From a virus, in the IMG/VR virus record IMGVR_UViG_3300033064_002947, positions 1-45,676 of that record: a stretch of DNA of 45,676 bases. One strand, written 5' to 3'. The number at the start of each line of letters is the position of its first letter. Position 1 is the first letter of the stretch. The notes under the pieces are model-generated. The model ran no database searches and was not told where the DNA came from. It was given only the letters and a program-made list of their open reading frames with translations. This document shows, in pieces, positions 25,261 through 45,676 of this stretch. The position numbers and the translations under genes were made by a program.

Positions 25261-25281
25261 AGCACCCTCCTTGCAACGGAT

Positions 25282-25310
25282 AAGATAACATAGAATGGGA
25301 GAATTGTCAA
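25282..25310 (-). promoter_or_regulatory. Sigma70-like promoter for the HNH gene
   Basis: On the minus strand TTGACA (25310-25305), a 17-base spacer, then TATCTT (25287-25282). It points at the HNH start about 20 bases further on. The -35 is perfect; the -10 matches 4 of 6. Confidence 0.6.
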
Positions 25311-26552
25311 ATGACTGATAGATTATATCCGAAGGGCGCAAAACCACCCTGGGCTCACACGGACCGGGGCGTGCACCTGCTCCCAGCGGCATATCACGGG
25401 ACTTGGATGAAGCGGGCGAGCTACTGGATCGAACTGTTGGTCTCGATGCACATGAGCTGGGTTGTAATCATCACGGATGGGGACAGCGTGCACGAGCGGT
25501 GCCAGACAGACGCATACGGAATGATCTCACCACTAGAGCTGCTACTAAACCACCAAATCACGCCCATTGTAAGGGACGGAACGGATCTGTTCCCCAACCC
25601 GTTCACGAATATGGAGTGTGTGTCCAGGGCAGCAGCTCTTTATCAATCCTATGACATGAAGCCAATGTGGCTCTATGCCAATGAGCCATTCGATTCTAGG
25701 GAATACGACGAACGATGGCTCAAGAACCATCCCATGCCCGACGCCAATGATCCAGAAGACTTTGCGTTCGTGATGGACAAATGTCAGGAAAGGGCCTCGC
25801 GGGTCATCGAGAACGGCGGGATAGCTGGATTCCCGGATGGACCTTGCTATCCGCAAAACCCGTTCGATCACCTGGACAAGAATCAATGGGAGGCCGGGCA
25901 GTGCGTCTACGCTGCCCATAATTATGGGAAGGGGCGTCCGGTAGATTACCCCTACGACTCGGTGACACGGATGGGAACGCCACTGACCGAACAGGAATAC
26001 CGGAACGCCCTGGATGACTTCTGGAATGATCCCAAGTTCCGGGATTATAAGCTGGAGGCGATTAACGCGAAAAGAGCGGAATGGAAACAGCCTGGACTGA
26101 CCGCTATCCAGGATGATACTTGCTGGCGCGGCTGGGAGAAGACATTATGGTATGCTGAGCAGGCTGAATTTCCAGTCCCTCCTCTCATACTTACTGAAGG
26201 TGGTTGGTGCCCGAGGGACAGAGCCGGGACGGGACCGAACACCGACATCCGCTGGCCAAACACCACACCGAAGATGGTCGGCAAGAAGATGCTGGAAATG
26301 TTCGGCGAAGGGCCGTTTATCGCTCAATGCCCTTGGATCTTGGCAGACGATGCGATGGTCCCAGGCGGATACGTCGGTTGGCCCTACGACGCATGGGTCG
26401 GTTGGGCATACTCAGACGTGATTGACCAGGATACCGGGGAGCCCTACGGGCCAGAGAAACCAGTCGTCTGGATGCTACAGGAACAGGATTGCCCCTGGAC
26501 CAATGTCATCCAATCCTTCGAGAGAATACTTGACGCCTGGTCGATGTTGTGA
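25311..26552 (+). CDS. Glycoside hydrolase-like TIM-barrel protein
   Basis: A 413-residue protein resembling the N-terminal barrel of the endolysin in motif layout. YANEP (Glu125) would be the acid/base and LILTEGGWCP (Glu296) the nucleophile of a GH-A-like enzyme. VVIITDGDS and ITPIVRDG look like barrel strands. It has no signal peptide or cell-wall-binding repeat. It could be a second peptidoglycan or capsule hydrolase or a non-catalytic barrel. The gene ends the late region, 64 bases before the hairpin terminator. Confidence 0.65.
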   Translation: MTDRLYPKGAKPPWAHTDRGVHLLPAAYHGTWMKRASYWIELLVSMHMSWVVIITDGDSVHERCQTDAYGMISPLELLLNHQITPIVRDGTDLFPNPFTNMECVSRAAALYQSYDMKPMWLYANEPFDSREYDERWLKNHPMPDANDPEDFAFVMDKCQERASRVIENGGIAGFPDGPCYPQNPFDHLDKNQWEAGQCVYAAHNYGKGRPVDYPYDSVTRMGTPLTEQEYRNALDDFWNDPKFRDYKLEAINAKRAEWKQPGLTAIQDDTCWRGWEKTLWYAEQAEFPVPPLILTEGGWCPRDRAGTGPNTDIRWPNTTPKMVGKKMLEMFGEGPFIAQCPWILADDAMVPGGYVGWPYDAWVGWAYSDVIDQDTGEPYGPEKPVVWMLQEQDCPWTNVIQSFERILDAWSML

Positions 26553-26564: not shown

Positions 26565-26648
26565 ACTCCTTTCTCCCGTAGGGGCGCGCACGGGCGAGAA
26601 TCGCGCCCAAAAAGTAAAGACCTCGGACTGAAATCCGAGGTCTTTGCC
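26565..26648 (+). ncRNA. Putative small non-coding RNA (about 80 nt)
   Basis: The segment between a near-consensus promoter and an intrinsic terminator contains no start codon with a ribosome site. It has one hairpin with a perfect 7-bp GC stem (GGGCGCG 26582-26588 with CGCGCCC 26602-26608), then AAAAAG and the terminator stem. Alternatively it is only the 3-prime untranslated end of the late mRNA. Transcription from its own promoter is inferred. Confidence 0.4.
26616..26645. terminator. Bidirectional intrinsic terminator between convergent operons
   Basis: A perfect 12-bp stem (AAAGACCTCGGA 26616-26627 with TCCGAGGTCTTT 26634-26645) and a 6-base loop. A-run and T-run flank it on both strands, so it can stop rightward late and leftward early transcription. 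It sits exactly at the strand switch. Confidence 0.9.
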
Positions 26649-26654
26649 TTTACT

Positions 26655-26927
26655 TCACCAGGTTATATCCACAACGCTTGTGGTCACATCCTGCTCTTTA
26701 AGTAGTGCGCGCAATCGCACAACACATTTATCGCACAGATCACTTACCCCCCAGCCCGTTTTATTCCCACCGTCGGGATACGATGACCCCGTGGTAAATT
26801 CCAGACGAAAGTTTCGTTCATTATAGCCACGCGGACTTTCCATTGACACTCCGCACCAATCACAAGTAATAGAGACAAGCTTCTCAACTACACGAGTGAT
26901 GGTTTCTTCTTTGTACTTACAGGTCAT
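26655..26927 (-). CDS. Small zinc-binding protein
   Basis: A 90-residue protein from ATG 26927, which has AAAGGAGG six bases upstream; longer starts lie on the far side of a hairpin and are less likely. It has two cysteine pairs (CDWCG near residue 24 and CDKC near residue 65), a treble-clef-like arrangement. It is the last gene of the leftward operon, ending just before the terminator. Function unknown. Confidence 0.7.
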   Translation of the reverse strand: MTCKYKEETITRVVEKLVSITCDWCGVSMESPRGYNERNFRLEFTTGSSYPDGGNKTGWGVSDLCDKCVVRLRALLKEQDVTTSVVDITW

Positions 26928-26946
26928 CTTTTTCCTCCTTTGTTGA

Positions 26947-26973
26947 AGGCCCCAGGCCATTGACCTGGGGCCT
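26947..26973. other. 10-bp perfect stem-loop
   Basis: AGGCCCCAGG (26947-26956) pairs with CCTGGGGCCT (26964-26973) around a 7-base loop. On the leftward transcript it ends about 10 bases before the AGGAGG site of the zinc-binding protein. It lacks a U-run, so it may be an RNA processing or stability element rather than a terminator. Confidence 0.6.
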
Positions 26974-27008
26974 CCCCTACCATCTGTGAGAACGCTCAAA
27001 CACTCCTT

Positions 27009-27101
27009 TCAGGCATCCTTCAGGACGAGAAGGACAAGCCCAATTCAGACCGCCGCGCTGACCACGACGATCTCCAGAAGGTTGAGGATGTCAGCGTACA
27101 C
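27009..27101 (-). pseudogene. Small membrane peptide split by an in-frame TGA
   Basis: From GTG 27101 the frame reads MYADILNLLEIVVVSAAV, then TGA, then IGLVLLVLKDA and a second TGA. The hydrophobic pattern continues cleanly across the first TGA, as if it replaced a Trp codon. It overlaps another weak frame (27020-27202), so which is translated is uncertain. Confidence 0.3.
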
Positions 27102-27202: not shown

Positions 27203-27266
27203 CATCCCCTCCCAGATATTCCAGAATCACGTCCCATGCCGCATCGCAGCCGTAGCAGCTATTCAT
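27192..27266 (-). CDS. Micro-protein (24 aa)
   Basis: ATG 27266 lies in an ATGA overlap with the stop of the HNH gene, with GAGGG 8 bases upstream. The peptide begins MNSCYGCDAAWDVILEYL and ends GGDDDN; its C-x-x-C could bind a metal. Tight overlap at both ends supports translation. Confidence 0.45.
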   Translation of the reverse strand: MNSCYGCDAAWDVILEYLGGDDDN

Positions 27267-27877
27267 GATACGCCCTCAGTTAGCGCCCTTTCCACTGACC
27301 AGCCTCGATGCAATCTGTGCCATAGGGTGCTGTATTTCATTGCCAGTCCTTCTGCCCACTCAGCGATAGATTTTGTCTGCCCTGCATACGTCAGCAAGGC
27401 GTTATTGCTTTTGTTATGGCCCTGTTCACACCGCGTCGCCCAACGACAGTTTTCTTTGCAGTAGCTCCCATCATTGTCGATACGATCAAGGCTGTATTCT
27501 AACGTAGGCCGTTCACCCATATCTGCGAAAAATCCCTCAAATGATAGCCAGCTTTTCGACACGGTTATTCCTCGCCCCCCATAGCGATCATAAGCGGGGT
27601 TGCTGGGATTCATCGTGCGGCCCTTCATGCTGCACCAACTATTATATTCCGGCGTGCCATGCCCTCCGTGGGTAGTTGCATTGTCAGTGGCTACCTCAAC
27701 TTTCAGACAGCCGCATGAACGCGTATGACCACTCTTCAGATGGTCAGTGCGTACTTCTGTCTCTTCCCCGCAATCGCACCGACATCTCCAAATGCGTTCC
27801 CCTTTTTTAGTCTTCCCCACATCCTCAATCCCTGCTAGCCTGCCGAATCGCTTCCCTGCCAAATCCAGCCTACTCAT
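27263..27877 (-). CDS. HNH homing endonuclease
   Basis: A 204-residue relative of the gene at 24682. It has the same zinc ribbon (CRCDCG, SCGC), YNSWCSMKGR helix, nuclease core (SLDRIDNDGSY, CRWATR) and a C-terminal helix-turn-helix-like repeat (SIAEWAEGLAMKYSTLWHR). ATG 27877 follows AGGAGGTAACG. Unlike the other HEGs it is read with its neighbours and is coupled to them by short overlaps, so it probably has no promoter of its own. Confidence 0.9.
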   Translation of the reverse strand: MSRLDLAGKRFGRLAGIEDVGKTKKGERIWRCRCDCGEETEVRTDHLKSGHTRSCGCLKVEVATDNATTHGGHGTPEYNSWCSMKGRTMNPSNPAYDRYGGRGITVSKSWLSFEGFFADMGERPTLEYSLDRIDNDGSYCKENCRWATRCEQGHNKSNNALLTYAGQTKSIAEWAEGLAMKYSTLWHRLHRGWSVERALTEGVS

Positions 27878-30508: not shown

Positions 30509-31069
30509 ATGTATGGCAAGACAGGATTTAAAACTAAGCAGGATTATGACAGAGCGTGCTATCAGCGCAAAAAGGCAATACGAAATGCCGAAAAGCCACC
30601 AGATCCCATTACGTTGTTGACTGATATTGAGCTTGCATATATCGCAGGTCTTGTAGATGGTGAGGGCTCTATCCATGCTACGAGAAAAGAAACCAAAGGG
30701 ACATATTATCCTTTTCTGTGTATTACAATGACTCATCAAGGAGTGGTCGAATGGCTTGCTGAAAAAGTTGGCAATAAGGCTGTTTATGTTGCAGCGCCAG
30801 AACGTCACAAACTTGCTCGTAAGCCAGCATATAGCTTTAGGCTGCAAGGTAGACGCGCCAAGCTTCTTTGCCAAGGATTGATGCCCTATCTTAAAGTTAA
30901 ATACTACCATGCTAATATACTTCTCCGTTGGCCTTGTGATGTCAGAATTGGGCCTGGTATCACAATAGATCAAACAGGCATTATTCCTATCCGAGAGAAT
31001 TTGGCAGCAGAATTGCGGAAACTAAATGGTTATCGTTATAATAAACGCCTTGGCTTACCAGAGAAATGA
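30509..31069 (+). CDS. LAGLIDADG homing endonuclease (single motif)
   Basis: A 186-residue protein read against the surrounding operon. It has one LAGLIDADG motif (AYIAGLVDGEGS, residues 43-54), so it should act as a homodimer. Downstream features YPFLCITMTHQGVVEWLAE and YYHANILLRWP fit the family. It interrupts a second DUF5131 gene whose first 36 codons remain to its right. GGGGGT lies upstream of the ATG and a near-consensus promoter precedes it. Confidence 0.9.
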   Translation: MYGKTGFKTKQDYDRACYQRKKAIRNAEKPPDPITLLTDIELAYIAGLVDGEGSIHATRKETKGTYYPFLCITMTHQGVVEWLAEKVGNKAVYVAAPERHKLARKPAYSFRLQGRRAKLLCQGLMPYLKVKYYHANILLRWPCDVRIGPGITIDQTGIIPIRENLAAELRKLNGYRYNKRLGLPEK

Positions 31070-35911: not shown

Positions 35912-36384
35912 AATGCTTTCCCGTCTTGCCCTATAGCAGATAACTTTCTCTGATTATTGCCCTGTCGAAATACTAGGATCGCCGACGGAAACGGCGCTGG
36001 ACCGCTGCCGCTGAACCGAAGCCTCCCTTTCACCAACCTGATCTCGCTGGCCCGCATGGCATAGTCATGCCACCAACGAACATCGGTTCTTGCGGCAAGC
36101 AGCATGACGACTATACTTCCCTTCTGCGCTTCCTCGTAGCCCTTGCGGACGAACGCATAGGTCAATTTCCAGTCCTTTGTGTACGGCGGATTACACCAGA
36201 TGATCCCGTCCCAGGGCTGGAGCAGGGCATTATCCTCCTTGGTCCAGAACCGTTCGCATTTGGCGTTCTCTGCGGATGCGGCGGCGTCCAGGTCAAAGCT
36301 GAACTCGCGATCCAATTCATCAAAGAAGTCCTGCGGGGTCTCCCACTCACTGCGGGCGGAGGAGAATAGAACCTTGTCAACCAC
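35908..36384 (-). CDS. Dam-like DNA N6-adenine methyltransferase
   Basis: 158 residues from GTG 36384, overlapping the previous gene by 8 bases. It begins with SARSEWETPQDFFDELDREF and FDLDAAASAENAKC, typical of phage Dam-type proteins, and has the catalytic motif NPPY (WCNPPYTKDW). FPSAILVFR at the end is the last strand. These enzymes protect phage DNA from host restriction. The family is normally 140-190 residues, so the gene is complete. Confidence 0.85.
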   Translation of the reverse strand: MVDKVLFSSARSEWETPQDFFDELDREFSFDLDAAASAENAKCERFWTKEDNALLQPWDGIIWCNPPYTKDWKLTYAFVRKGYEEAQKGSIVVMLLAARTDVRWWHDYAMRASEIRLVKGRLRFSGSGPAPFPSAILVFRQGNNQRKLSAIGQDGKAL

Positions 36385-38512
36385 GCTTCACATCCACGAA
36401 CATTGGAGCGTCGCCCTCGATGCGTTCGCGGCCCATCTCGCAGTAGTCGGCTGAAAGGTCAATCAGAATCGCGTCGCGGCCTAGCCGGTCAGCGACGAGG
36501 CCCACGGTGCCAGCGCCGGAGAAAGGATCAAGGCATGTGGCGGGAACGGGAGTCAGCTCTGGTGCGATTATGATGCCCTCGGACATTGCCATCGTCCCCT
36601 TGAGTACCGAGCGGTCTAACTTATTCTGGCAATCGCAGGTGGGACGCCAGCCGGTTGTGGTCTTTTCATAGCTACCAAATCCATCTGCATTTGTCATGCC
36701 TATGCCTGACAAATCTGTCATTCCGTGCATCTTCTGCCCATATTCTGGGCAAAACGGCTTGCCACCGCGTAGGGTTTTGAAGTCTCCCTTCTCCACCACC
36801 CTGACCCAAGGAGCCAAACATGTAGGGCATACGCCGCGCTCAGAAGTCCCGGCGCGAATCATCGGCTCGACGAGGGCGGGAGGAAAAGTTGCGAAGTGGG
36901 CGTCGGGGAAGGGCGACGTGAGGATGGTCCAGACGGTTCGTTTATTGCGGCCTGCGGGGTTGCCCCATTCGCGGTCGGGGTCTTGGGCCGGGTCTGTCGC
37001 GGCCCTAGCGCCAATCCGTCTTTGCGTCTTGTTTCCTGGGGCATGACGCGGCCCATCAAACTTTTCCCTCACCGCATCCGCGTCGTAGAAATATCTCGCG
37101 CTCTTGGACATCAAGAAAACATATTCGTGACTTCGCGTCGGCCTGTCGGTCACGCTCTCGGGCATACAGTTCGGCTTCGCCCAGATGATGTCGCTTCTCA
37201 GCCACCACCCGTCAGCCTGGAGCGCGAAGGCGACGCGCCAGGGTATCCCGCACAGGTCTTTGGGTTTGAGCGCGTTTGTCCTGCATCGCCCATCAGGTAT
37301 GCGGCGCGGTGCTTTTGGATCGGCGTGATTGTCTGCCTGTGGTGTACTCGCGTAGCTATCCCCCAAGTTCAGCCACAGCGTCCCATCGTCCCGCAGGACT
37401 CGTTTCACTTCGCGCATCACCTCGACCAGGTGCTCGACGAACAGCTCGGGCGTCGGTTCGAGGCCGAGGCTGGACTTGACTGCACCGCACTTTTGACATA
37501 TATTAGTAGCAGAGGATTGATCATGCCAGTTACCTTGATTTGCACAAGTTGCGGATGTAGTTTTCAAGTCGGGCCGTCCCAAGTCGCTAGGCGTCGGACT
37601 TGCTCCCCCGCCTGCCGTGATACCAGAATTGAAGTTGCTTGTGAATTTTGCGGAAAGTCTCTCCTCCGCCCCAATTGGCATCGCAGAATGTCTAATCACC
37701 ATTTCTGTACCACTGCTTGCAGTTCTGCCTTCAGGAGAACCTACCGCTTGGGTGCTCACCAAATCAATTTTTCCCTCTTTGATGAGTGGACTGACACAGC
37801 AGCCTATCTGTTTGGATTGCTCTGTGCCGACGGTCACATTTGTGATAATGGGCAGGTCGGATTCGTCAGCGCAGATGAGTCTTTGACTGTCTTTGTCCGC
37901 GATTCCCTTGCCCCTCAAAGCCCGATCAGAACTGAGACGACGAAGGCTGGTACCATCGTGTTCCGTTGGAACATCTGGTCGATGCGACTTATTGATTTGC
38001 TTCAGTCCTTCGGACTTACTCCCCGCAAAAGTCTGACCCTGCAATGGCCTCACATCCCCGATGGCGCCATCTACGGTTTCATCCGAGGATATCTCGATGG
38101 CGACGGGCATATTGATAAGGTTGCCAGAATCAGTTTTGCCACTGCTAGTCGATGTTTTGCCGACGGGCTTTGTGATACCCTGAATAATCTTGGGCATCGC
38201 ACTAGTATTTACAATGGTACTAGGGTCTTCTCTGTTACAGTCGGTATCCCCGGTAGCCGTTCGCTTGGATTGCAGTTGTATGCCTCCGGTTTTTGTCTCA
38301 CCAGAAAACGGGACAGGTTCTTCATGTATGCACGTCTCTGAACCCCAAGGCACCCATTCGTGTTGGCAGTTTTCATCCCCGCCCCACACCAGCGGGGGCG
38401 TACCATATGAACGCAACCCCCAATATGGAGGAGAAGTCACACAACAGTGAACAGACTCGGCGGGTAGCTCTCGCAGCTTCACGCGGCAATCACCCTGAAT
38501 GATGCGAATCAC
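36377..38512 (-). CDS. DNA N4-cytosine/N6-adenine methyltransferase carrying an in-frame antisense insertion
   Basis: The frame is open for 711 codons from GTG 38512. Residues 1-57 hold the catalytic TSPPYWG (26-32) and 331-711 hold CQKCGAV, LGLEPTPELF, TLWLNLGDSYAS and the SAM motif DPFSGAG (662-668). This is a beta-class methyltransferase of the kind with D/N/S-PPY before FxGxG. Residues 58-330 are exactly the antisense translation of a LAGLIDADG gene and are Ser/Thr-rich without similarity to the enzyme. Removing them leaves a normal 438-residue enzyme. Activity with the insert is uncertain. Confidence 0.85.
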   Translation of the reverse strand: MIRIIQGDCRVKLRELPAESVHCCVTSPPYWGLRSYGTPPLVWGGDENCQHEWVPWGSETCIHEEPVPFSGETKTGGIQLQSKRTATGDTDCNREDPSTIVNTSAMPKIIQGITKPVGKTSTSSGKTDSGNLINMPVAIEISSDETVDGAIGDVRPLQGQTFAGSKSEGLKQINKSHRPDVPTEHDGTSLRRLSSDRALRGKGIADKDSQRLICADESDLPIITNVTVGTEQSKQIGCCVSPLIKEGKIDLVSTQAVGSPEGRTASSGTEMVIRHSAMPIGAEERLSAKFTSNFNSGITAGGGASPTPSDLGRPDLKTTSATCANQGNWHDQSSATNICQKCGAVKSSLGLEPTPELFVEHLVEVMREVKRVLRDDGTLWLNLGDSYASTPQADNHADPKAPRRIPDGRCRTNALKPKDLCGIPWRVAFALQADGWWLRSDIIWAKPNCMPESVTDRPTRSHEYVFLMSKSARYFYDADAVREKFDGPRHAPGNKTQRRIGARAATDPAQDPDREWGNPAGRNKRTVWTILTSPFPDAHFATFPPALVEPMIRAGTSERGVCPTCLAPWVRVVEKGDFKTLRGGKPFCPEYGQKMHGMTDLSGIGMTNADGFGSYEKTTTGWRPTCDCQNKLDRSVLKGTMAMSEGIIIAPELTPVPATCLDPFSGAGTVGLVADRLGRDAILIDLSADYCEMGRERIEGDAPMFVDVKRG
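37476..37504 (+). promoter_or_regulatory. Sigma70-like promoter for the nested LAGLIDADG gene
   Basis: TTGACT (37476-37481), 17 bases, TATATT (37499-37504); the start codon is at 37523 with AGAGG at 37511-37515. The site lies within methyltransferase coding sequence, so it may predate the insertion. Confidence 0.5.
37523..38341 (+). CDS. LAGLIDADG homing endonuclease nested antisense in a methyltransferase gene
   Basis: 272 residues from ATG 37523. It has an N-terminal pair of zinc fingers (C7/C10/C27/C31 and C40/C43/C62/C66), then two LAGLIDADG motifs, AYLFGLLCADGH (94-105) and FIRGYLDGDGHI (185-196), so it can act as a monomer. The stop codon TGA lies exactly where methyltransferase homology resumes. 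Codons are in antisense register with the methyltransferase, and no TTA, CTA or TCA is used among about 25 Leu and 23 Ser, keeping the other strand open. Confidence 0.9.
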   Translation: MPVTLICTSCGCSFQVGPSQVARRRTCSPACRDTRIEVACEFCGKSLLRPNWHRRMSNHHFCTTACSSAFRRTYRLGAHQINFSLFDEWTDTAAYLFGLLCADGHICDNGQVGFVSADESLTVFVRDSLAPQSPIRTETTKAGTIVFRWNIWSMRLIDLLQSFGLTPRKSLTLQWPHIPDGAIYGFIRGYLDGDGHIDKVARISFATASRCFADGLCDTLNNLGHRTSIYNGTRVFSVTVGIPGSRSLGLQLYASGFCLTRKRDRFFMYARL

Positions 38513-38844
38513 CGCACCGGCCCCTTCGAATCCATCTCCTTGCGCCTCTTCTTGACGGCCTTGGATGGCTCCAGTTTTCCGTTCCCATACCTCAATTGCT
38601 GGACTTCCCTGCGCCTCCGGGCGAGCGTAGAGAAGCCAGGTATCTCCTTCGACACGCCGTCAAGATAGCGCTGCAGATCCGAGTCCAGTTCGTAGGGTGA
38701 ATTGTAGAATAACATCCACACTATGAATGCCAGGGCCGCATCGCTGTCCCTCGTGCCGGGGTACCGCTCCATGACCCACTCCACTTGTTCTTTGTAGTCC
38801 AGGTACGGAGGCCCTCTCACTTCGCCGAATAGGTCAGCCTGCAT
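38509..38844 (-). CDS. Hypothetical protein (111 aa)
   Basis: ATG 38844 follows AGGAAAGG. Begins MQADLFGEVRGPPYLDYKE; helical, with SDAALAFIVWMLFYNSPYEL and a basic C-terminus (KAVKKRRKEMDSKG). The D-A-ALAF pattern recalls small phage proteins of unknown role next to methyltransferases. Its stop overlaps the methyltransferase GTG. Confidence 0.65.
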   Translation of the reverse strand: MQADLFGEVRGPPYLDYKEQVEWVMERYPGTRDSDAALAFIVWMLFYNSPYELDSDLQRYLDGVSKEIPGFSTLARRRREVQQLRYGNGKLEPSKAVKKRRKEMDSKGPVR

Positions 38845-38845
38845 G

Positions 38846-39088
38846 TTATTTGCCTTTCCTCTGGCGGCGTATAGTGTAAGCACCGTATCCTTTTCCAGAT
38901 TTGAAGATAGGATTCCCGTTCTCCACTACATCAGCCCTTACCCGATGGTCATCATCTTCCGACCATGGCCAAATAATGATGCCGTTCTCAAGCTCTATCG
39001 CTTCCAAGATGAAGTATTCATCGTAAGATATCTTGGTGATGCGTTGCCCCACCATCTTTTCCATTATTGCTCTGTCAGGCGTTTTCAT
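38846..39088 (-). CDS. Hypothetical protein (80 aa)
   Basis: ATG 39088 after AAAGGAAAG. Begins MKTPDRAIMEKMVGQRI, then beta strands (EYFILEAIELENGIIIWPW) and a Gly/Lys-rich end. Resembles small phage proteins with an I-x-L-x-N-G core; function unknown. Confidence 0.6.
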   Translation of the reverse strand: MKTPDRAIMEKMVGQRITKISYDEYFILEAIELENGIIIWPWSEDDDHRVRADVVENGNPIFKSGKGYGAYTIRRQRKGK

Positions 39089-39125
39089 GAATTAACTTTC
39101 CTTTCTTCATTGTCACCGCTTTCAG

Positions 39126-39356
39126 TCAGTCCCGGCAATTCCGCGGCTCTGGCTCGCACACGACCTTCCCGGTCCAATACAGGTCGTCAGGAAAGTCGAA
39201 ATTCACCCACCTGACCGCCGCCAATTTCGCGGCCTCCTCCGTTTCGGCCATGACTTGGCGCTCCCTGAACTCGACGGTTTTGTAGTTCTGCACGAGACAT
39301 TCACTGCACGTGACGGGGCCGGTCGCGGTTCCTGTGATTATATAGACGTTAGCCAT
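39126..39356 (-). CDS. Small Cys-containing protein (76 aa)
   Basis: ATG 39356 after GGGGG. Begins MANVYIITGTATGPVTCSEC and ends CEPEPRNCRD; TETEEAAKLAAVRW-like helix. Two C-pairs suggest a metal or a disulphide. Function unknown. Confidence 0.55.
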   Translation of the reverse strand: MANVYIITGTATGPVTCSECLVQNYKTVEFRERQVMAETEEAAKLAAVRWVNFDFPDDLYWTGKVVCEPEPRNCRD

Positions 39357-39696
39357 AAAAGTCCCCCTCAGCTTGTATGAAGAAAGCGGGTAGGCCCGGC
39401 TTGACCTTGAACGGCAGACCGTCGATCCATTCTCGTACATCGTCTGGCGTGAAGCCCATTGTCCATTTCTGAAGCGCGCAAAGATAGTTTAGGTCGGGAG
39501 CTTCGCCCATTTCAATATGGTCAGCAGGGCAAACTAGGGAAATGTTGCACTTATCCCAAAGCAGCTCCTCGTACCGCTTTATGCGACGGACGAACAGGTG
39601 ATGCAAAGTATCATGGATCGATACTGGCTGCCTGCAGGCTGGGCAAAATCGCTGGTGCTCAACAAGCCATTCGCGCAGCTCCATTCTGGCGTTCAT
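39349..39696 (-). CDS. HNH-type nuclease-like protein
   Basis: 115 residues from ATG 39696 in an ATGA overlap. Contains CPAC, then IHDTLHHLFVRR (His-His as the nuclease first element), KCNISLVCPADH (Asn and His as the others), giving H-N-H with a zinc-binding Cys set. Phage small HNH proteins of about 110-120 residues near packaging or early genes nick DNA; whether this one is structural or homing-related is unclear. Confidence 0.7.
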   Translation of the reverse strand: MNARMELREWLVEHQRFCPACRQPVSIHDTLHHLFVRRIKRYEELLWDKCNISLVCPADHIEMGEAPDLNYLCALQKWTMGFTPDDVREWIDGLPFKVKPGLPAFFIQAEGDFYG

Positions 39697-39932
39697 CCCA
39701 GCATCTCGTCCCAGGCTTCACACAGTTCTTGAACAGCCAGGGCTAGTTCTATTCCTTGGATTCCATCATCTTTCGTCCATGCTTGATATACAGTTTCTAC
39801 CAGGCGGGGCAGTTCGTCGTCGAAGAATGGGCTATGCACGCGGAGCTTGACCTCTTCCGGTTCCAAAAGTGCGTCGAATTGGTCTATCTCGTCTTGTAAT
39901 TGGGCATGATTCAGATCATCGGGGTATGTCAT
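39693..39932 (-). CDS. Small acidic protein (79 aa)
   Basis: ATG 39932; begins MTYPDDLNHAQLQDEIDQF. Strongly acidic and helical, ending in QELCEAWDEMLG, whose last codons overlap the next ATG. A DNA-mimic-like charge is noted but no family matched. Confidence 0.6.
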   Translation of the reverse strand: MTYPDDLNHAQLQDEIDQFDALLEPEEVKLRVHSPFFDDELPRLVETVYQAWTKDDGIQGIELALAVQELCEAWDEMLG

Positions 39933-39933
39933 C

Positions 39934-40158
39934 TCAATTCAGGCACACCATGATCGCCATATTCATCGTCGGCGTCTCCTTTAGCGGGACCAGCACCATC
40001 GCGGCTCGCCTCCCATCCGTCTGCATCCGAAAGATCATCTTCTCCTTCGCCATTTCGTCCCATAAAGGTTTCATCCCGGAGATCATTTCCTTCAGCTTCC
40101 CAAGAGAACGTATAGCGTGTTCTCTCTGGTCCTTCTCGTACTTTTTCGACTGCTCCAC
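39934..40158 (-). CDS. Hypothetical protein (74 aa)
   Basis: GTG 40158 lies 5 bases after GGAGGTGG. Begins MEQSKKYEKDQREHAIRSLG and later has MIFRMQTDGRRAAMVLVPL, a helix-then-strand pattern that looks real. A second frame (39929-40204, GTG start, also with GGAGGTGG) covers the same DNA but its C-terminal part is hydrophilic and less plausible. I favour the 40158 frame. Confidence 0.55.
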   Translation of the reverse strand: MEQSKKYEKDQREHAIRSLGKLKEMISGMKPLWDEMAKEKMIFRMQTDGRRAAMVLVPLKETPTMNMAIMVCLN

Positions 40159-40193
40159 AGTCCACCTCCATTCCGTTTTTCAATCTGACTGTT

Positions 40194-40604
40194 TTACCGT
40201 CCACGCCGCCACCTCCAATATGTCATCGGATGTATGGTAGCATAGAATATATCCTGCACTGGAAGCCTCGCCCGCCACCAATAGTACCGCGCCAGCATCC
40301 CGGCCCAATGCCGAAATTCTTGCTTGGCGTCCGCCAGTAGCTTATCAGCCCTGCGTGGCATTGGTGGGACTGTGACTTGGATATTGGTACAGGTGTCTGT
40401 GTAGATCTTGCCGTCTTTCCCGCCGTGGTCAAGACAGATGGTATAAGCACCTCGGTGATATCTATCTTCATCATATATGTCCACCCCGCATGGCCAGGGG
40501 CCCTCCAAGAGCTTTCCGCAAAGCGAGCACCGTCGCCAGCCCTCAAAATAGAATCGGTTTTCCCAGCCCAACGAACCATGAATTGCAGTATCTTTATAGC
40601 TCAT
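40194..40604 (-). CDS. Hypothetical zinc-site protein (136 aa)
   Basis: ATG 40604 follows GGAGGATAG. Begins MSYKDTAIHGSLGWENRFYF; C-x-x-C at CSLCG near residue 27 and a second Cys/His set (CGVDIYDEDRYHRG). The C-terminus is aromatic and basic (YYWWRARLPVQD, YWRWRRGR). Function unknown. Confidence 0.6.
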   Translation of the reverse strand: MSYKDTAIHGSLGWENRFYFEGWRRCSLCGKLLEGPWPCGVDIYDEDRYHRGAYTICLDHGGKDGKIYTDTCTNIQVTVPPMPRRADKLLADAKQEFRHWAGMLARYYWWRARLPVQDIFYATIHPMTYWRWRRGR

Positions 40605-40606
40605 TT

Positions 40607-41341
40607 CTATCCTCCCCATGCCGTCGCGCCGGTCAGCTCCACGGCCTGATCTATCAACCAGGCCCTCCACGCCTTGCCCGCCAGCGTCCTCGCCCTGGGG
40701 AACACGACGATGGTGTCCAGCTGGCCCACGTCGCCATCGGGCCATACGACGATCCGGCAATTGTCATCCGATTCCACCAGGGACGCACTGATGCCCGGTC
40801 TCTCGCCTCCGCCCTGTCTCTCCTCCAAGGTCAGGCCCGCCATCGCCAGCACGGTCGTTTCGTCCTCGCCAGACAGAGATGCGAACACGGCGATGTTATC
40901 CAGCAGGAATGACTTAGCCTCAGCCCTCAACGCGGGGATTTTCAATGCCATTTCCACTTTGTTGAGGGCGGCGCCGGGATCACTGGACAGCAGGCCGTCG
41001 ACCACCTGTCTCCACAGGGCGACGTCGAGAACTTCGCCTTTGTCTTCCAATGCCTTCTGCATCTTCCCAGCCACCAGGTACATCGCAGTCCTGGATCTCA
41101 ATTCCAGGATGCGCGGGTCCCTTTCCGCGGCTTCTGCGACCAGGATTAGGTTGTATGCAGTGCGTTGGGACCAATGGAATTCGTCCCGGAGCCATCGGAG
41201 CCAGTCCCGGTCCGCCTTGAGCAGCTTCCGCGCTTCCCGGAGCCGGTACCCGATCTCGACCACGTTTTCCGTGGCCCTCGCGACGAGCTGGTGGATCTCC
41301 TCAGCGAGAAGATTGACGCGGGCCGTGTTGATGCGAATCAT
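40607..41341 (-). CDS. DUF3102-like phage protein
   Basis: 244 residues from ATG 41341 in an ATGA overlap. Residues 10-65 match the DUF3102 pattern: LVARATENVVEIGYRLREA, LKADRDWLRWLRDEFHWSQRTAYNLI. This helical domain is found in phage and plasmid proteins related to ParB/KorB-type or antirepressor proteins. The rest includes VESDDNCRIVVWPDGD and WRAWLIDQAVEL. A role in regulation or segregation-like DNA binding is inferred. Confidence 0.75.
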   Translation of the reverse strand: MIRINTARVNLLAEEIHQLVARATENVVEIGYRLREARKLLKADRDWLRWLRDEFHWSQRTAYNLILVAEAAERDPRILELRSRTAMYLVAGKMQKALEDKGEVLDVALWRQVVDGLLSSDPGAALNKVEMALKIPALRAEAKSFLLDNIAVFASLSGEDETTVLAMAGLTLEERQGGGERPGISASLVESDDNCRIVVWPDGDVGQLDTIVVFPRARTLAGKAWRAWLIDQAVELTGATAWGG

Positions 41342-41595
41342 TCTCCGCACTTTTCCAAGACATCGGTCGCCTTGTCGAGAATCTTGGCGATTGCCTCCTT
41401 GTGCTTTTCGTAGAAGGCATCCGCCGCTTTCTGCCCGTCGAGGTGAATCACGCCAACGGGCCTTGTTCCGTCAGGCGGTCTATCTGAAATGTAGTTCACG
41501 CCAGTCACGTAATCGCCTTTGTCGATGGAACAGAAGCAGAATATCCCCTCTCCGGCGTCCATGGTGCCGTCTATGACGTATTCAGTCCAACTCAT
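41338..41595 (-). CDS. Hypothetical protein (85 aa)
   Basis: ATG 41595 overlaps the end of the frameshifted zinc-site gene. Begins MSWTEYVIDGTMDAGEGIF and ends with a helix (AIAKILDKATDVLEKCGE). A small alpha/beta domain; function unknown. Confidence 0.6.
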   Translation of the reverse strand: MSWTEYVIDGTMDAGEGIFCFCSIDKGDYVTGVNYISDRPPDGTRPVGVIHLDGQKAADAFYEKHKEAIAKILDKATDVLEKCGE

Positions 41596-41753
41596 CGTCA
41601 GCCTCTTTTCCCCCGTGCAAGGGGCAATCCTCAGTCACCCAAAACACCGGCCCGTCGTCTGGATATTCCTGCACCGTGCGCATTGTCGAGAATCGGACAG
41701 GTGCAGCCACGATCTATCGCCTCATCGCTGCCCGGATTCGGAACGTCATCCAT
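41582..41753 (-). pseudogene. Frameshifted C-x-CP...CPLHG small zinc protein
   Basis: Frame A from ATG 41753 (GGGGG upstream) reads MDDVPNPGSDEAIDRGC and CTCPILDNAHG, then loses sense and stops at 41631. Frame B from ATG 41683 continues with QEYPDDGPVFWVTEDC and CPLHG, ending at 41582. Together they give the common phage micro-protein with NPGSDEA, CxCPxLDN and FWxTExCPLHG. A single base difference or a +1 frameshift near CACGGT links them. The broken gene may be dead or recoded. Confidence 0.65.
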
Positions 41754-41770
41754 CGCTGACCCCCTTTTGT

Positions 41771-41785
41771 TTGCAAACTTTGCAA
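41771..41785. promoter_or_regulatory. TTGCAA tandem site 3
   Basis: Two TTGCAA hexamers 3 bases apart, between the DnaC-like gene and the CxCP gene. Confidence 0.3.
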
Positions 41786-41794
41786 CAATCATCG

Positions 41795-42625
41795 TCAAAA
41801 CACCTTCTCCTCTACTACCCTTTCCTTGAGCAGTGGCCTCACGTCCCCGCCACCAGCTTCAATGACCCAGAAGTGGGTCATTCTTGAGTACAGCCAGCCC
41901 AGGCTATCGGGCCAGTCATCTCCACCCGGCTCCACATTGCTCGCCAGGACCGTGACGGCCTGGAAGTCACATGCTAGGTCGTAGCGGTGGTCCAGGAGCT
42001 GCCGATACTTCTCCTCAGCCCACGGTGTCTGCTGGTAGGCATCCACCTCGTCGATCAGCAGTGCATAGCAATCAGACCACTGAGTAAAAGCGTTCGAGAA
42101 CCCCAACCCGCTCGGGCCGTAGGACTCCCGCAGGTGCTGCAGTAATCCCGCCGTGGTGCAATAGACCGCAGCCTTGCGCTGCTCCAGGAAATGGTTGGCG
42201 ATGCAGGCAAGGAGGAAAGTCTTTGACGTTCCGTAGCTGCCCCATAACGTCAGCCAACCATAGCCAAGATCCACCATCTGCCGGGCGGCGTCGTACTGGG
42301 CCCTCCGATCCACGTCGTCCAAATAGTCCTGGAACCGCGCATGCCGCAGCCAGGACGTGAGCCCGCTGGCGTCCCGGAGATACTTGGTCAGGTCGCCATT
42401 CTTGCACACGCACGGGAACAGTTTGCCGAACGCCTTGTGTTGGATGGAAACGTCTTCACGGAATACCCCAAGCCCAAGGCAGGCGGGACAGATGTCATCC
42501 CTTCGGGCCTGGGCCAGCGCGTGTTTCTTCCACTCCGGGGGCTCGTCGGATCTTGGAATGCTGAGCTGCAATGGCCCTGGCGACGGAAGGCGATGCTTGC
42601 TCGTGCTTGATCCTACTAGGGGCAT
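41795..42625 (-). CDS. DnaC-like helicase loader (AAA+ ATPase)
   Basis: 276 residues from ATG 42625 with AGAGGAGTG upstream. A zinc-type knuckle (C46/C49 and C72/C74) precedes the AAA+ core: Walker A GSYGTSKT (129-136), Walker B LLIDEVD (189-195), and sensor-like VTVLASNVEP. Such proteins load the replicative helicase at the origin. The Walker A Ser/Lys/Thr are intact. The first 131 bases overlap the end of the initiator gene in another frame. Confidence 0.85.
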   Translation of the reverse strand: MPLVGSSTSKHRLPSPGPLQLSIPRSDEPPEWKKHALAQARRDDICPACLGLGVFREDVSIQHKAFGKLFPCVCKNGDLTKYLRDASGLTSWLRHARFQDYLDDVDRRAQYDAARQMVDLGYGWLTLWGSYGTSKTFLLACIANHFLEQRKAAVYCTTAGLLQHLRESYGPSGLGFSNAFTQWSDCYALLIDEVDAYQQTPWAEEKYRQLLDHRYDLACDFQAVTVLASNVEPGGDDWPDSLGWLYSRMTHFWVIEAGGGDVRPLLKERVVEEKVF

Positions 42626-43445
42626 TACGTTTCACTCCTCTCACGTGGGGTATCTCCCCGATATTATACCACTTTTCCAGCATATATTTTACATTTCCTT
42701 TATACCAGCCAAGGCCGACATAAGCACGAACAACCTCTCTCCAACGGTCTAAGTCTGTGACTTCAGCCAGGTCAGGCCACCAGGATTTGGGCGGGAAGAG
42801 TTCTGTCACTTCACGGTAGACGTCCACGGCTGGCGGGCGCGGGGGCTTGGCGTCAATGCGGGGCTTCGGAACTGCTTGTTCCAGAACCTCGGAGTCTGTA
42901 ACGGGGACGGTGGGTTCAGAAATCTCAATCGGACAAGAATCTTGTGCCGGCGCGCTAGCGCCAAGGGTTTTATTCTTAACCTTATTATCCTTACCTTGTT
43001 CTTCTTTAGGTAACGGTTTTGATACATTAACCGTATCTTCTGAGATACATTCAGTTGTATCATTTATGATACGAATGGTTGTATCATTCTGTTTAGCAAG
43101 TTCAACCAACCCGAGTTCAACCAACCGTGGGATTTGATTCACGTCCTCGATATAGGTCATTGACGAGGTGCCGAGCCTCCTGACCCTGGTGATGTATCCA
43201 AGTCTTACCAGCTCTGTGGTGTGGCGCGAGACGGTAACCCTTTTTTTCTTGCGGTCGCTTGCTAATCTCTCGGTGCCAGGAAAGCACTCACCTTTTTGTT
43301 GTGCATATTTGAGATAGATGGCGTAGGTTCTGTATGCCCCATCACTGAGGTCAGGGTCCAGTGCGATTACATGGCTCAACTGAGCAAACCCAACTTTTTG
43401 TACGGGGTTGCGGTAAACGATGCTTTCCAATGATTCTTCTGTCAT
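42495..43445 (-). CDS. Winged-helix replication initiator
   Basis: 316 residues from ATG 43445. Residues 20-100 form a winged helix: ALDPDLSDGAYRTYAIYL, CFPGTERLASDRKK, VSRHTTELVRLGYITRVRR, typical of HTH_36 in phage initiators. After a variable linker (residues 120-210, Thr/Pro-rich) comes a DnaD-like C-terminal helical part (VYREVTELFPPKSWW, GNVKYMLEKWYN). It would bind the origin and recruit the loader gene that follows. The AP2-HNH gene stop overlaps its start by 4 bases. Confidence 0.75.
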   Translation of the reverse strand: MTEESLESIVYRNPVQKVGFAQLSHVIALDPDLSDGAYRTYAIYLKYAQQKGECFPGTERLASDRKKKRVTVSRHTTELVRLGYITRVRRLGTSSMTYIEDVNQIPRLVELGLVELAKQNDTTIRIINDTTECISEDTVNVSKPLPKEEQGKDNKVKNKTLGASAPAQDSCPIEISEPTVPVTDSEVLEQAVPKPRIDAKPPRPPAVDVYREVTELFPPKSWWPDLAEVTDLDRWREVVRAYVGLGWYKGNVKYMLEKWYNIGEIPHVRGVKRNAPSRIKHEQASPSVARAIAAQHSKIRRAPGVEETRAGPGPKG

Positions 43446-43936
43446 GGTCTTTTTTCCTGTGGGAAGTTTAGCGTGGCGAACTCACCGTGCAATTCAAGGG
43501 CTGCGGCGTCGTAGGCATGGGCGGCTTGTTCAAGGTCGTCGAAGTAGCCCTGATGAAGTTGTTTCCCATCGACAACGATATGTGCACGCCATTTTCTGCA
43601 CCCTTTGTGAAAGCTCGCGCCCATGTAGCCGGACGTATTTCTTTTGTATCGGTGGCTATTTCTCGCGTTCTCTTTGCGGCTGCACTCCCGGAGGTTCTCA
43701 CGGCGATTATCAAGGCTGTTCCCGTTGACGTGATCAGTCAGTATGTCCTTAGCAGGGTCGAGAATCAACCTATGCATGAATAGTTGCGTCCTCTTCCCCT
43801 TGAGCCATACGTTCCGTTTTGCGTATCCGGTTTTCCCTGTACGGGAATAATACCATCCCCATTGACTCAACCACTCGTGATCCTCATTGTCCACGATGGC
43901 GAACTTGCCTTGGGTCAGTGGTATCTTCTTGTTCAT
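43442..43936 (-). CDS. AP2-HNH homing endonuclease
   Basis: 164 residues from ATG 43936 (GGAGGG 5 bases upstream). Residues 50-95 are an HNH nuclease core (MHRLIL, DHVNGNSLDNRRENLREC). Residues 103-160 form an AP2 DNA-binding domain (GYMGASFHKGCRKWRAHIVV, AAHAYDAAALELHGEFA). Such genes are mobile in phages and bind specific recognition sites. It is read with its neighbours and preceded by a structured leader. Confidence 0.9.
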   Translation of the reverse strand: MNKKIPLTQGKFAIVDNEDHEWLSQWGWYYSRTGKTGYAKRNVWLKGKRTQLFMHRLILDPAKDILTDHVNGNSLDNRRENLRECSRKENARNSHRYKRNTSGYMGASFHKGCRKWRAHIVVDGKQLHQGYFDDLEQAAHAYDAAALELHGEFATLNFPQEKRP

Positions 43937-44084
43937 AGTTCCCTCCAATACAAAAGGACTGCTTCTCTTGCCCGGCTCCGTAGCCCTGTAGCGATCGCCC
44001 ACAAGCTGGCGAGAGATACGGGGCCGGACAAGAACAGCAGTCCTGCCGCTTGTGATTTCCCTCGCTACAGGGATATTCTAGGTT
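43937..44084 (-). ncRNA. Structured leader with interleaved inverted repeats
   Basis: Two alternative helices share one segment. The first pairs CCCTGTAGCGA (44072-44062 on minus) and CACAAGC (44054-44048) with GCTTGTG (44006-44000) and TCGCTACAGGG (43994-43984). The second pairs the 21-base segment 44043-44023, which lies in the loop of the first, with 43976-43956 (18 of 21 bases match), followed by UUUU. They cannot both form fully, because the 4-base linker cannot span a 21-bp helix. The layout is that of an antiterminator/terminator switch. Ribosome site GGAGGG and ATG follow. Confidence 0.55.
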
Positions 44085-44090
44085 GCCCAT

Positions 44091-44119
44091 ATTCTACTAC
44101 ACATCGCCAGCATTGTCAA
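44091..44119 (-). promoter_or_regulatory. Sigma70-like promoter for the replication block
   Basis: Minus strand TTGACA (44119-44114), 17 bases, TAGAAT (44096-44091). A start about 7 bases on gives a leader of about 147 bases before the AP2-HNH gene. Confidence 0.75.
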
Positions 44120-44134
44120 ATCCTGCATGTCAGT

Positions 44135-44200
44135 TCACCACCAGCCGAATACTCTTCCTGCCGCGTAGGGCGGCTGCTCAGGGAGTATGGGAGTGCTCAT
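44135..44200 (-). CDS. Possible micro-protein (21 aa)
   Basis: ATG 44200 overlaps the stop of the tape-measure-like gene (ATGA); the frame begins MSTPILPEQPPYAAG and ends FGWW. No independent ribosome site. Coupling is the only support. Confidence 0.35.
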   Translation of the reverse strand: MSTPILPEQPPYAAGRVFGWW

Positions 44201-44469
44201 TCAGTCTCCATCAATGCTAAATATTCCCAATTGGGCGGCACGATCTTTTGTAGCACCAATAGTTCTGGCACGTTGACCAATGCCACTATTTCTTCTAATG
44301 TGGATGCTAGCCCCGTCCCTACGAGCTTGTACCCGATTCTCATGAGGTCAATATCTGACACCGTGCCGCCTGTTGCCTCCCGCAGACTGCCCAACAAAGC
44401 ATAACTGTCTATGCCAGTGCTTTTTGCTAGCATCTCAAAGGCGATTGCGACCTGCTCAAGCTTTATCAT
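44197..44469 (-). CDS. Small protein resembling a tape-measure segment
   Basis: 90 residues from ATG 44469, which overlaps the previous stop. Residues 10-44 (AFEMLAKSTG..., GGTVSDIDLMR) match residues 91-121 of this phage's own tape measure protein (AFEMMSKESG..., GTVSDLELMR), with a 4-residue insertion. The conserved helix-turn-helix of tape measure proteins appears here as a free-standing, early-orientation gene. It may bind tail chaperone or tail-tip partners. Function is unknown; a decoy or exclusion role is speculation. Confidence 0.65.
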   Translation of the reverse strand: MIKLEQVAIAFEMLAKSTGIDSYALLGSLREATGGTVSDIDLMRIGYKLVGTGLASTLEEIVALVNVPELLVLQKIVPPNWEYLALMETE

Positions 44470-44618
44470 TCAATCTTCACCAAATCTATCACCATGCTGA
44501 AATTATCAAAGATTCTTGGCGACCCTCGCCCTAGATAAGTGTGCATCGTCGGCTTCAGCCCCGCAAAAAGCCCAACCCCAACTACCACCAGTTTGCAGAA
44601 TTTACGCCGAGACAGCAT
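44466..44618 (-). CDS. Small protein with a twin-arginine-like signal (50 aa)
   Basis: ATG 44618 with AAAGGA 6 bases upstream (ATG 44621 is an alternative). It starts MLSRRKFCKLVVVGVGLFAG. S-R-R-x-F-x-K followed by a hydrophobic stretch fits the Tat signal consensus. The remaining 28 residues are short and its stop overlaps the ATG of the tape-measure-like gene. A membrane-anchored or exported peptide is inferred. Confidence 0.55.
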   Translation of the reverse strand: MLSRRKFCKLVVVGVGLFAGLKPTMHTYLGRGSPRIFDNFSMVIDLVKIE

Positions 44619-44640
44619 CATATATCCTTTTCAGATTGCC

Positions 44641-44826
44641 CTACCACCAGCCCAAGCAGCGGCCCGCCAAGATGATACCTGCCGCTGATTTAATCAATTC
44701 TAGTATATAGCTCCAGGCCGTACATCTGATCTCGTTACGGCCTATCAGGAAAGGCCCGCCAAATATGTCTAGCGCCGCCGTCAATAGAATACAACTTGCG
44801 GAACTCAATATTATCCAGTCTGGCAT
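44641..44826 (-). CDS. Small two-helix membrane protein (61 aa)
   Basis: ATG 44826 with AAAGGAG 7 bases upstream. Helices at residues 3-20 (DWIILSSASCILLTAALDIF) and about 38-60 (YILELIKSAAGIILAG). Size and topology are compatible with a holin or membrane regulator; no charged holin-type start is clear. It is not next to the endolysin, so a holin role is unproven. Confidence 0.6.
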   Translation of the reverse strand: MPDWIILSSASCILLTAALDIFGGPFLIGRNEIRCTAWSYILELIKSAAGIILAGRCLGWW

Positions 44827-44843
44827 TTTACACTCCTTTCGGA

Positions 44844-45011
44844 TTACTTCTGGTCTATTGTTGTGTCCCAGCATTCCCTGTGCGCCGGACGATCATCCAT
44901 GTACGGATTAACATATACGGCACCACTGTCGAGGTCTTCCCAGGTGATAGGCTCTCCGCAGATGACGCAAGGCTCACCAATTAAGCATGAGAAATCACGG
45001 TGCAAAATCAT
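44844..45011 (-). CDS. Small zinc-site protein (55 aa)
   Basis: ATG 45011 with AAGGA 3 bases upstream. It begins MILHRDFSCLIGEPC and has C-x-x-C (CVIC) then RPAHREC, a pattern of C2HC zinc sites in small phage proteins. Protein-like throughout; function unknown. Confidence 0.55.
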   Translation of the reverse strand: MILHRDFSCLIGEPCVICGEPITWEDLDSGAVYVNPYMDDRPAHRECWDTTIDQK

Positions 45012-45048
45012 AGTCCTTGCCGAGGATATTGATCGTGTCGGGTTTCAT
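44995..45048 (-). CDS. Micro-frame (17 aa)
   Basis: ATG 45048 overlaps the C5-methyltransferase stop; it reads MKPDTINILGKDYDFAP and stops within the next gene. Possibly only a translational-coupling leader. Confidence 0.3.
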   Translation of the reverse strand: MKPDTINILGKDYDFAP

Positions 45049-45676
45049 GCGTACTCTACCTCCATGATTCGCTCTCCGATCCACTGTGTTACGTCTGGAA
45101 CTACGGCATTCCCTAACGCTCTCAGCTTCGCTACCCTGTCAGGTACTCCGGTGGCAACCCGTCTAATTCCGGGTTCTGGTAGCCATCCAGATCCAGCCAG
45201 TCTAGGGGGAAGCCCATCAGCCAAGCTGTCCAGGCGGGAGAGAGCTGTCCCCCGACCACTGACGGATCGTTCTTCTTCAGCGCCGTTTCCAAGTTGGGAT
45301 AGCGGTTCGGGTCGGCCTCTTTGGTTATCGTTGCCGCCATTGCTGAATTGGAGCGCGGCGTCGGCCACATCTTGACCGCCTTGCTCAGGGCTACATAGGC
45401 ATCCGCGCTGTTGTGCTGCTGGCGCTCTTCTGCTCTCGGCGTAGGCCACATCTTCTGCATCAGCGTTAACAGCGCAACGCTCCGCGCCTTCGGGTTCATC
45501 CCTGCCCCTTGTGCGTGATGGTCCCTTGTGTTCGGCGAGGGCCACAACGAAGATCCGTTCCCGTCTGTGCGGGGCATCGAAGGCGCAAGCTGGAAGATTA
45601 AGCGTCGTGCAGGAGTAGCCTTCACCTTCCAGGTCAGATAGCACCGTGTCGATATAGGTGGTGACGATTCCAAGCA
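45045..45676 (-). CDS. dcm: C5-cytosine DNA methyltransferase (C-terminal part)
   Basis: Open from the right edge, giving the last 209 residues. It has GYSCTTLNLPACAFDAPHRR with the family motif (A)PHRRERIFVVA and, at the end, RVAKLRALGNAVVPDV, the conserved motif X helix of C5 methyltransferases. The enzyme core and catalytic PC motif would be to the right. The intervening region is the variable target-recognition part. It protects phage DNA. The symbol is a family label, not proof of Dcm specificity. Confidence 0.8.
   Translation of the reverse strand, partial: LGIVTTYIDTVLSDLEGEGYSCTTLNLPACAFDAPHRRERIFVVALAEHKGPSRTRGRDEPEGAERCAVNADAEDVAYAESRRAPAAQQRGCLCSPEQGGQDVADAALQFSNGGNDNQRGRPEPLSQLGNGAEEERSVSGRGTALSRLDSLADGLPPRLAGSGWLPEPGIRRVATGVPDRVAKLRALGNAVVPDVTQWIGERIMEVEYA
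45131..45676 (-). other. Second long reading frame over the C5 methyltransferase
   Basis: Another frame on the same strand is open from the right edge to 45131. It contains TWKVKATPARRLIFQLAPSM, WPTP twice, and GGQLSPAWTAWLMGFPLDW, strings that I also know from proteins annotated as phage methylases. Motif content makes the 45045 frame the true C5 enzyme; this frame may be an annotated shadow or a real overlapping product. Confidence 0.4.

Follow-up and report, generated by a model that had tools for sequence, protein, structure and literature searches.

A phage leader with crossed long-range helices, possibly a transcription attenuator before replication genes

The virus record IMGVR_UViG_3300033064_002947 (45,676 bases, analyzed over its whole length and referred to here as the window) carries on its minus strand, before the replication genes, a leader of about 148 nt in which two long folds exclude each other. 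The structure is real, direction-specific and well placed, and it probably acts as an on/off switch of a general type already known. Its best single explanation, which we put forward tentatively, is a transcription attenuator before the phage replication operon, preferred over a DNA element or a processing site mainly because a direction-specific T-rich tail is aligned with the promoter.

Locus and gene order

The leader lies between a 90-aa open reading frame (44469-44197), to which no function is assigned, and an AP2-HNH endonuclease gene (43936-43442). The elements that frame it are as follows.

44119-44091, minus strand: sigma-70-like promoter, TTGACA (44119-44114), 17-nt spacer, TAGAAT (44096-44091); a pattern match with 11 of 12 consensus positions
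43946-43941, minus strand: GGAGGG ribosome site of the HNH gene
43936-43442, minus strand: AP2-HNH endonuclease, 164 aa, with a stop codon that overlaps the start of the following gene (ATGA)
43445-42495, minus strand: HTH replication-initiator-like protein, 316 aa
42625-41795, minus strand: DnaC-like helicase loader, 276 aa, resembling Chloroflexota loaders

A near-consensus promoter followed by a leader, an AP2-HNH gene and replication genes had been described in a first-pass annotation of the same DNA, and both the promoter, in its place and on its strand, and the gene order are borne out here. From the promoter position, transcription would be expected to start near 44084; the promoter lies 16 nt upstream of the first arm of the leader, and a consensus scan from the leader to the loader gene returned no better promoter in between. 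Two candidate reading frames within the region were rejected. A 68-codon frame from 44090, considered as a leader peptide, begins before the expected transcript start, and GTG 44002, in frame with the HNH gene, was discarded as its start codon because an AP2-HNH relative (L002) begins at the equivalent of 43936.

Crossed arms of the leader

Six arms follow one another on the minus strand in the order A B C B' A' C', so that A/A' and B/B' nest while C/C' crosses both.

44075-44062, minus strand: arm A, TATCCCTGTAGCGA, 5' strand of the early-forming fold
44054-44048, minus strand: arm B, CACAAGC
44044-44012, minus strand: arm C, 5' strand of the long terminator-like hairpin, lying in the loop of the A/B fold
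44006-44000, minus strand: arm B', GCTTGTG
43994-43981, minus strand: arm A', TCGCTACAGGGCTA, whose last 7 bases are the first 7 of C'
43987-43955, minus strand: arm C', 3' strand of the long hairpin
43954-43947, minus strand: T-rich tail TTTGTATT, directly 3' of the C/C' stem

The arms of A/A' are 14 nt long and 93% complementary, with an uninterrupted 11-bp core (44072-44062 with 43994-43984), and B/B' (44054-44048 with 44006-44000) adds 7 bp, which agrees with the stem of 11 and 7 bp noticed earlier. The longer helix, C/C', is formed by arms of 33 nt, of which 30 positions pair (27 Watson-Crick, or 82%, and 3 G-U) and three are single mismatches, and it closes a loop of 24 nt. The complementarity between this loop segment of the A/B fold and the sequence before UUUU had been recognized in the first-pass annotation and is real, while its length had been underestimated at 21 bases. 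Arms A' and C' overlap at 43987-43981 (AGGGCTA), and the partner of this stretch is either TATCCCT, in A, or TATCTCT, at the end of C. Because these seven bases are shared, the A and C folds compete in part for one set of bases and otherwise through topology. The statement that such interleaved arms cannot form one pseudoknot likewise holds for C/C' at full length; a partial pseudoknot through only the 9-bp end helix AGGACTGCT/AGCAGTCCT would be compatible with the geometry.

Strength of the arms against chance

Scored as a single helix, C/C' reaches 56, a value attained by none of 2000 dinucleotide shuffles, whose maximum was 37. With C held fixed, a helix of the grade of A/A' crossing it arose in 4 of 20,000 mononucleotide shuffles, and a nested inner helix of the grade of B/B' in 314 of 20,000. 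Minimum free energy z-scores of the leader are -4.15 over 171 nt and -4.53 over 148 nt, and in GC-corrected folding energy it ranks first of the 9110 segments of 130 nt on both strands of the window, by a narrow margin (-3.97 SD, against -3.93 and -3.85 for 26581-26710 and 26941-27070). In the last of these segments, the third strongest fold of the window, the minus strand has a strong hairpin, GGCCCCAGG/CCTGGGGCC, that closely precedes a ribosome site and a small gene.

Crossing by itself is less telling. When only perfect stems of at least 7 bp were counted, the leader, with crossing stems of 11 and 9 bp, was the best of the window, and one of five Markov sequences gave 9 and 9 bp, so that a crossing of perfect stems is not remarkable on its own. 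Scoring restricted to fully disjoint arms, which leaves out A since A overlaps C', yielded values as high as that of the leader in 229 of 2000 shuffles. Because both of these scorings gave weak results, the statistical strength lies in C/C' together with A given C, and not in the crossing as such: C/C' alone is beyond chance, and an A helix crossing it is improbable.

This joint improbability of the arms bears on the reading that they are sequence debris without present function, such as an old inverted duplication, which is very improbable even though the leader is an orphan sequence and C/C' carries 3 mismatches and 3 G-U pairs, since a simple inverted duplication yields nested rather than crossed arms.

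Competing folds and folding order

The C fold is the predicted minimum-energy state of the 171-nt segment, at -70.3 kcal/mol against -54.8 kcal/mol with A/A' forced, and the two exclusive long folds read from the sequence earlier are supported by these predictions. When successively longer prefixes are folded, the A fold is at the minimum for 3' ends from 43985 to 43975, the C fold replaces it once 43970 is reached, and the barrier from the A fold to the C fold along nested paths is estimated at 32-42 kcal/mol, pseudoknotted intermediates being excluded from the estimate. The minus strand is predicted to fold only modestly more stably than the plus strand (-68.2 against -62.4).

A crude heuristic that folds the growing RNA step by step, along nested paths, did not form C/C' at any of the barriers used (5, 7, 9, or 12 kcal/mol). 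A/A' formed only at 12 kcal/mol, and at 5-9 kcal/mol hairpins of the B/B' type formed first and trapped the RNA. Since the heuristic never reached the C fold, the default state in this model might always be read-through, and the terminator, if it is one, may be inactive unless assisted, or may be slow-acting.

The T-rich tail and the attenuator reading

Directly after the C/C' stem, on the promoter strand, the tail TTTGTATT holds 6 T in 8 positions; 8-mers with at least 6 T make up 0.13% of the minus strand, and the opposite strand has 2 T of 8 after the same hairpin. A terminator-like end, in support of the first-pass annotation, is therefore present on the strand of the promoter only. Of the features by which an attenuator is recognized, a hairpin with a T-rich tract behind it in the direction of transcription is found in the leader (with the tract at 6 T of 8), and an alternative fold that excludes the terminator-like hairpin is predicted.

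From the sequence, its arms, their predicted energies and the strand-specific tail, we infer a course of transcription that would end in termination or read-through. Transcription would begin near 44084, and by the time the RNA reached 43984, first B/B' and then A/A' would be complete, with C held in their loop. C' would be completed 29 nt after A/A'. If C then paired with C', a hairpin of about 30 bp would stand before the T-rich tract and polymerase would stop ahead of the HNH and replication genes, while persistence of the A/B fold would allow read-through into the downstream genes. Candidates for the factor that would decide between the folds are a phage protein, an antisense RNA, and the speed of the polymerase.

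Intrinsic-terminator attenuators share with the leader a promoter-proximal position, a terminator-like hairpin with a T-rich tract, and an alternative fold that excludes it. They differ in that in them an antiterminator strand takes up most of the terminator's 5' arm, which the alternative fold of the leader instead loops out, and in that the leader, with a stem of about 30 bp, comes with no known ligand, leader peptide or protein. Against the attenuator stand the length of the 30-bp stem and 24-nt loop, far greater than in usual intrinsic terminators, and a T tract that is short and interrupted; a terminator scan with a loop limit of 8 did not list the C/C' hairpin.

Alternative functions of the hairpin

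Rather unlikely, though the strongest of the alternatives, is a hairpin for processing or translation, in which C/C' would be an RNase III-type site or would control how ribosomes reach the HNH gene and, by way of the ATGA overlap, the initiator gene, the A/B fold being the uncut or closed state. The predicted duplex of at least 22 pairs, with three single mismatches, places C/C' above the 22-nt minimum target size for RNase III quoted in PMC5371410. There is also a resemblance to phage homing endonucleases: for I-TevI, segB, mobE and seg43(25), the excerpted account describes a stable hairpin beside the ribosome site of the endonuclease, as in the leader (PMC2988022). Most of these hairpins, as that account has it, cover the ribosome site, which that of the leader does not clearly do; here it resembles the case of Aeromonas phage 25, where a very stable hairpin is predicted directly upstream of, and not over, the ribosome site of the homing endonuclease gene seg43(25) (PMC2988022). 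The leader also has a second, crossing fold, which receives no mention for the homing-endonuclease hairpins in the part of the source consulted (PMC2988022). Such a hairpin would leave the T-rich tail superfluous, and accessibility of the ribosome site is predicted to be limited in both folds. Because the site is partly paired in either of them, a purely translational switch is not favored, and no clear translational switch emerges. Moreover, if the hairpin were a family trait of the endonuclease, relatives should share it, and it is absent from all ten AP2-HNH relatives compared, whose lowest upstream z-score is -2.86 against -4.53 in the leader.

Less probable still is a self-targeting RNA of the P4 or IsrK kind, in which the leader or a processed piece of it would act in trans on later copies, through C:C' or A:A', and stop or allow expression of the replication genes. 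According to the consulted portion of PMC4825925, pairing of the P4 CI RNA with seqA and seqC blocks replication-gene expression by premature termination, and Gifsy-1 IsrK has two alternative folds with about 30 nt paired. The leader shares with these systems its place before phage genes, its long self-complementary segments and its alternative folds, and a leader with self-complementary segments before replication genes follows the same logic as P4 (as far as that portion of PMC4825925 describes it). It differs from them in that its arms are crossed, it has no Rfam match, and an RNA acting in trans is only putative. No Rfam C4-type or other phage RNA matched even at E up to 10, there is no sign of a separate small RNA, and no integrase occurs among the proteins scanned (a subset of the open reading frames of a record that may be a fragment), lysogeny being unproven. 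None of the published parallels (seg43(25), P4, IsrK) matches the leader in sequence.

It is also improbable that the region is a DNA element, whether a replication origin, a repressor operator or an endonuclease target, whose inverted repeats merely look foldable. Such an element would be well situated beside initiator, loader and endonuclease genes. An array of iterons is, however, absent: 36000-45676 has two weak tandem rows, and 41700-45676 no more than scattered repeats of 2-3 copies. There is no skew switch at the locus. The arms lie directly downstream of a promoter with the T-rich tail on the promoter strand only, and a crossed order of arms is unnecessary for a DNA site.

Relatives of the leader

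Searches of the IMG/VR, phage, plasmid, and genome collections gave no homologous leader, and no description of this leader type was found in Rfam or in the literature searched. At gathering score, Rfam gave no match anywhere in the window; with E up to 10, the region 43900-44130 drew 18 matches, none of which reached gathering score, to models of microRNAs and small nucleolar RNAs. No family of the P4 CI, C4 or IsrK type matched among those in Rfam 15, and the possible riboswitch of the first-pass annotation, for which comparison with Rfam was the proposed check, corresponds to no curated family. No relatives of the record as a whole were drawn in the comparison.

Protein scans of IMG/VR with the initiator, the loader, the tape measure protein and the DUF3102 protein gave no relative, while the AP2-HNH protein gave two, both without the leader. 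Together with eight chosen from 2436 phage records, these two IMG/VR loci (two of two) make up the ten AP2-HNH relatives (L002, L003, L083-L090), none of which has such a leader or hairpin in the 148 nt upstream. Their upstream z-scores run from 1.14 to -2.86, as against -4.53 in the leader, and several of these AP2-HNH genes overlap the gene before them or almost abut it. Because all ten lack it, the leader is not an element of the AP2-HNH family. Absence of the repeats beside conserved genes had been named earlier as an observation that would tell against a switch, and it is seen only in the HNH family, where it holds for 10 of 10 relatives examined; a close relative of the replication genes was not found in the collections searched.

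Pattern scans of IMG/VR returned no match for A..A' and none for the ends of C..C'. The pattern B'..A' gave 13 stretches there and a pattern scan of the genome collection gave 11, and in none of these 24 did a downstream crossing helix come near the score in the window (at most 26 against 53). A genome protein scan with the loader and a plasmid DNA search found nothing. In phage DNA, the leader matched two records over 22 nt at E 7, and the longer query 43400-44700 matched one record, inside the HNH gene. A class-wide DNA search with E up to 1 gave matches in 242 of 396 genomes, the best at 5.2e-4 and all short among the matches listed. Six of eight fetched loci contained a 20-nt seed, all six within long open frames, and they were set aside as coding coincidence; in four of the six the seed encodes AIAHKLA in similar proteins that look helicase-like by eye.

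Host and attenuator-like leaders elsewhere

A hint of the host comes from the helicase loader, which matched 281 of 298 genomes of the class of the metagenome-assembled genome (MAG) 'Chloroflexi bacterium isolate UBA11865', down to E 3.4e-31, and only weakly those of a control class, that of a Clostridia MAG (46 of 148 genomes, best E 3.0e-9). The matching frames in the Chloroflexi class are mostly 450-550 aa long. As the loader matches that class far more than the control, a Chloroflexota-like host and a host-derived loader are suggested by sequence likeness; the Chloroflexi MAG was reached through a chance pattern match, and the survey covered the phyla of these two classes only. Relatives of the DUF3102 protein occur in 6 of 301 genomes, and the initiator-like protein matches 4 of 301.

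One genome from the phylum of the Chloroflexi MAG (G503) has two genes related to the initiator, with 40-41% identity over the HTH part, and these are the two loci inspected closely among the initiator relatives. The leaders upstream of these initiator-like genes (L060 and L064, on G503:C30) are 82% identical, share an identical block of 26 nt and have no Rfam match; in both, an alternative helix takes up the 5' arm of a terminator hairpin that is strong in L060 (-22.7 kcal/mol) and weak in L064 (-9.0 kcal/mol). Of 41 genomes of the class, 1 has the block, and minimum energies along five initiator-relative loci were not informative. The G503 leaders look like an undescribed attenuator of replication genes. 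They resemble the phage leader in having a terminator hairpin and an overlapping alternative pairing before a replication-like gene, and differ from it in that their pairings overlap in the classical manner whereas its arms are crossed, with no sequence similarity seen. Leaders of attenuator-like appearance before initiator-like genes thus seem to occur elsewhere, which would support the attenuator by analogy, not by homology.

Other features of the record

The phage seems rich in endonuclease genes. An N6/N4 DNA methylase gene (36377-38512, minus strand) contains an extra in-frame stretch of about 273-310 codons, at about 37523-38341, and the strand opposite this insertion codes for a LAGLIDADG homing endonuclease of 272 aa (PF14528, E 2.4e-11; with motifs at 37805 and 38078), hidden antisense inside a methylase frame that is still open. 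The open reading frames 24682-25392 (minus strand), 27263-27877 (minus strand) and 30509-31069 (plus strand) are HNH- or LAGLIDADG-like by eye, with no Pfam match at E 0.01. A further promoter-like sequence, of the extended sigma-70 type, at 35192-35164 (minus strand) matches at all 12 of 12 positions and leaves almost no leader before a gene start near 35143.

Implications

A more far-reaching version of the attenuator, and a long shot in our estimate, is a kinetic switch of crossed helices (A B C B' A' C') that would time or gate the phage replication operon, according to whether the first fold is overtaken by a terminator 15 kcal/mol more stable, possibly through a self-derived RNA acting in trans; it would be an RNA class absent from Rfam, and its phage would infect hosts of a phylum about which little is known. 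At present the leader is one orphan sequence. If the leader works as proposed, it would represent an unclassified RNA decision point before phage DNA replication, built on folding order and not on any ligand so far recognized, and the control of replication genes by RNA, for which P4 is the precedent, would extend to a phage without relatives in the collections searched.
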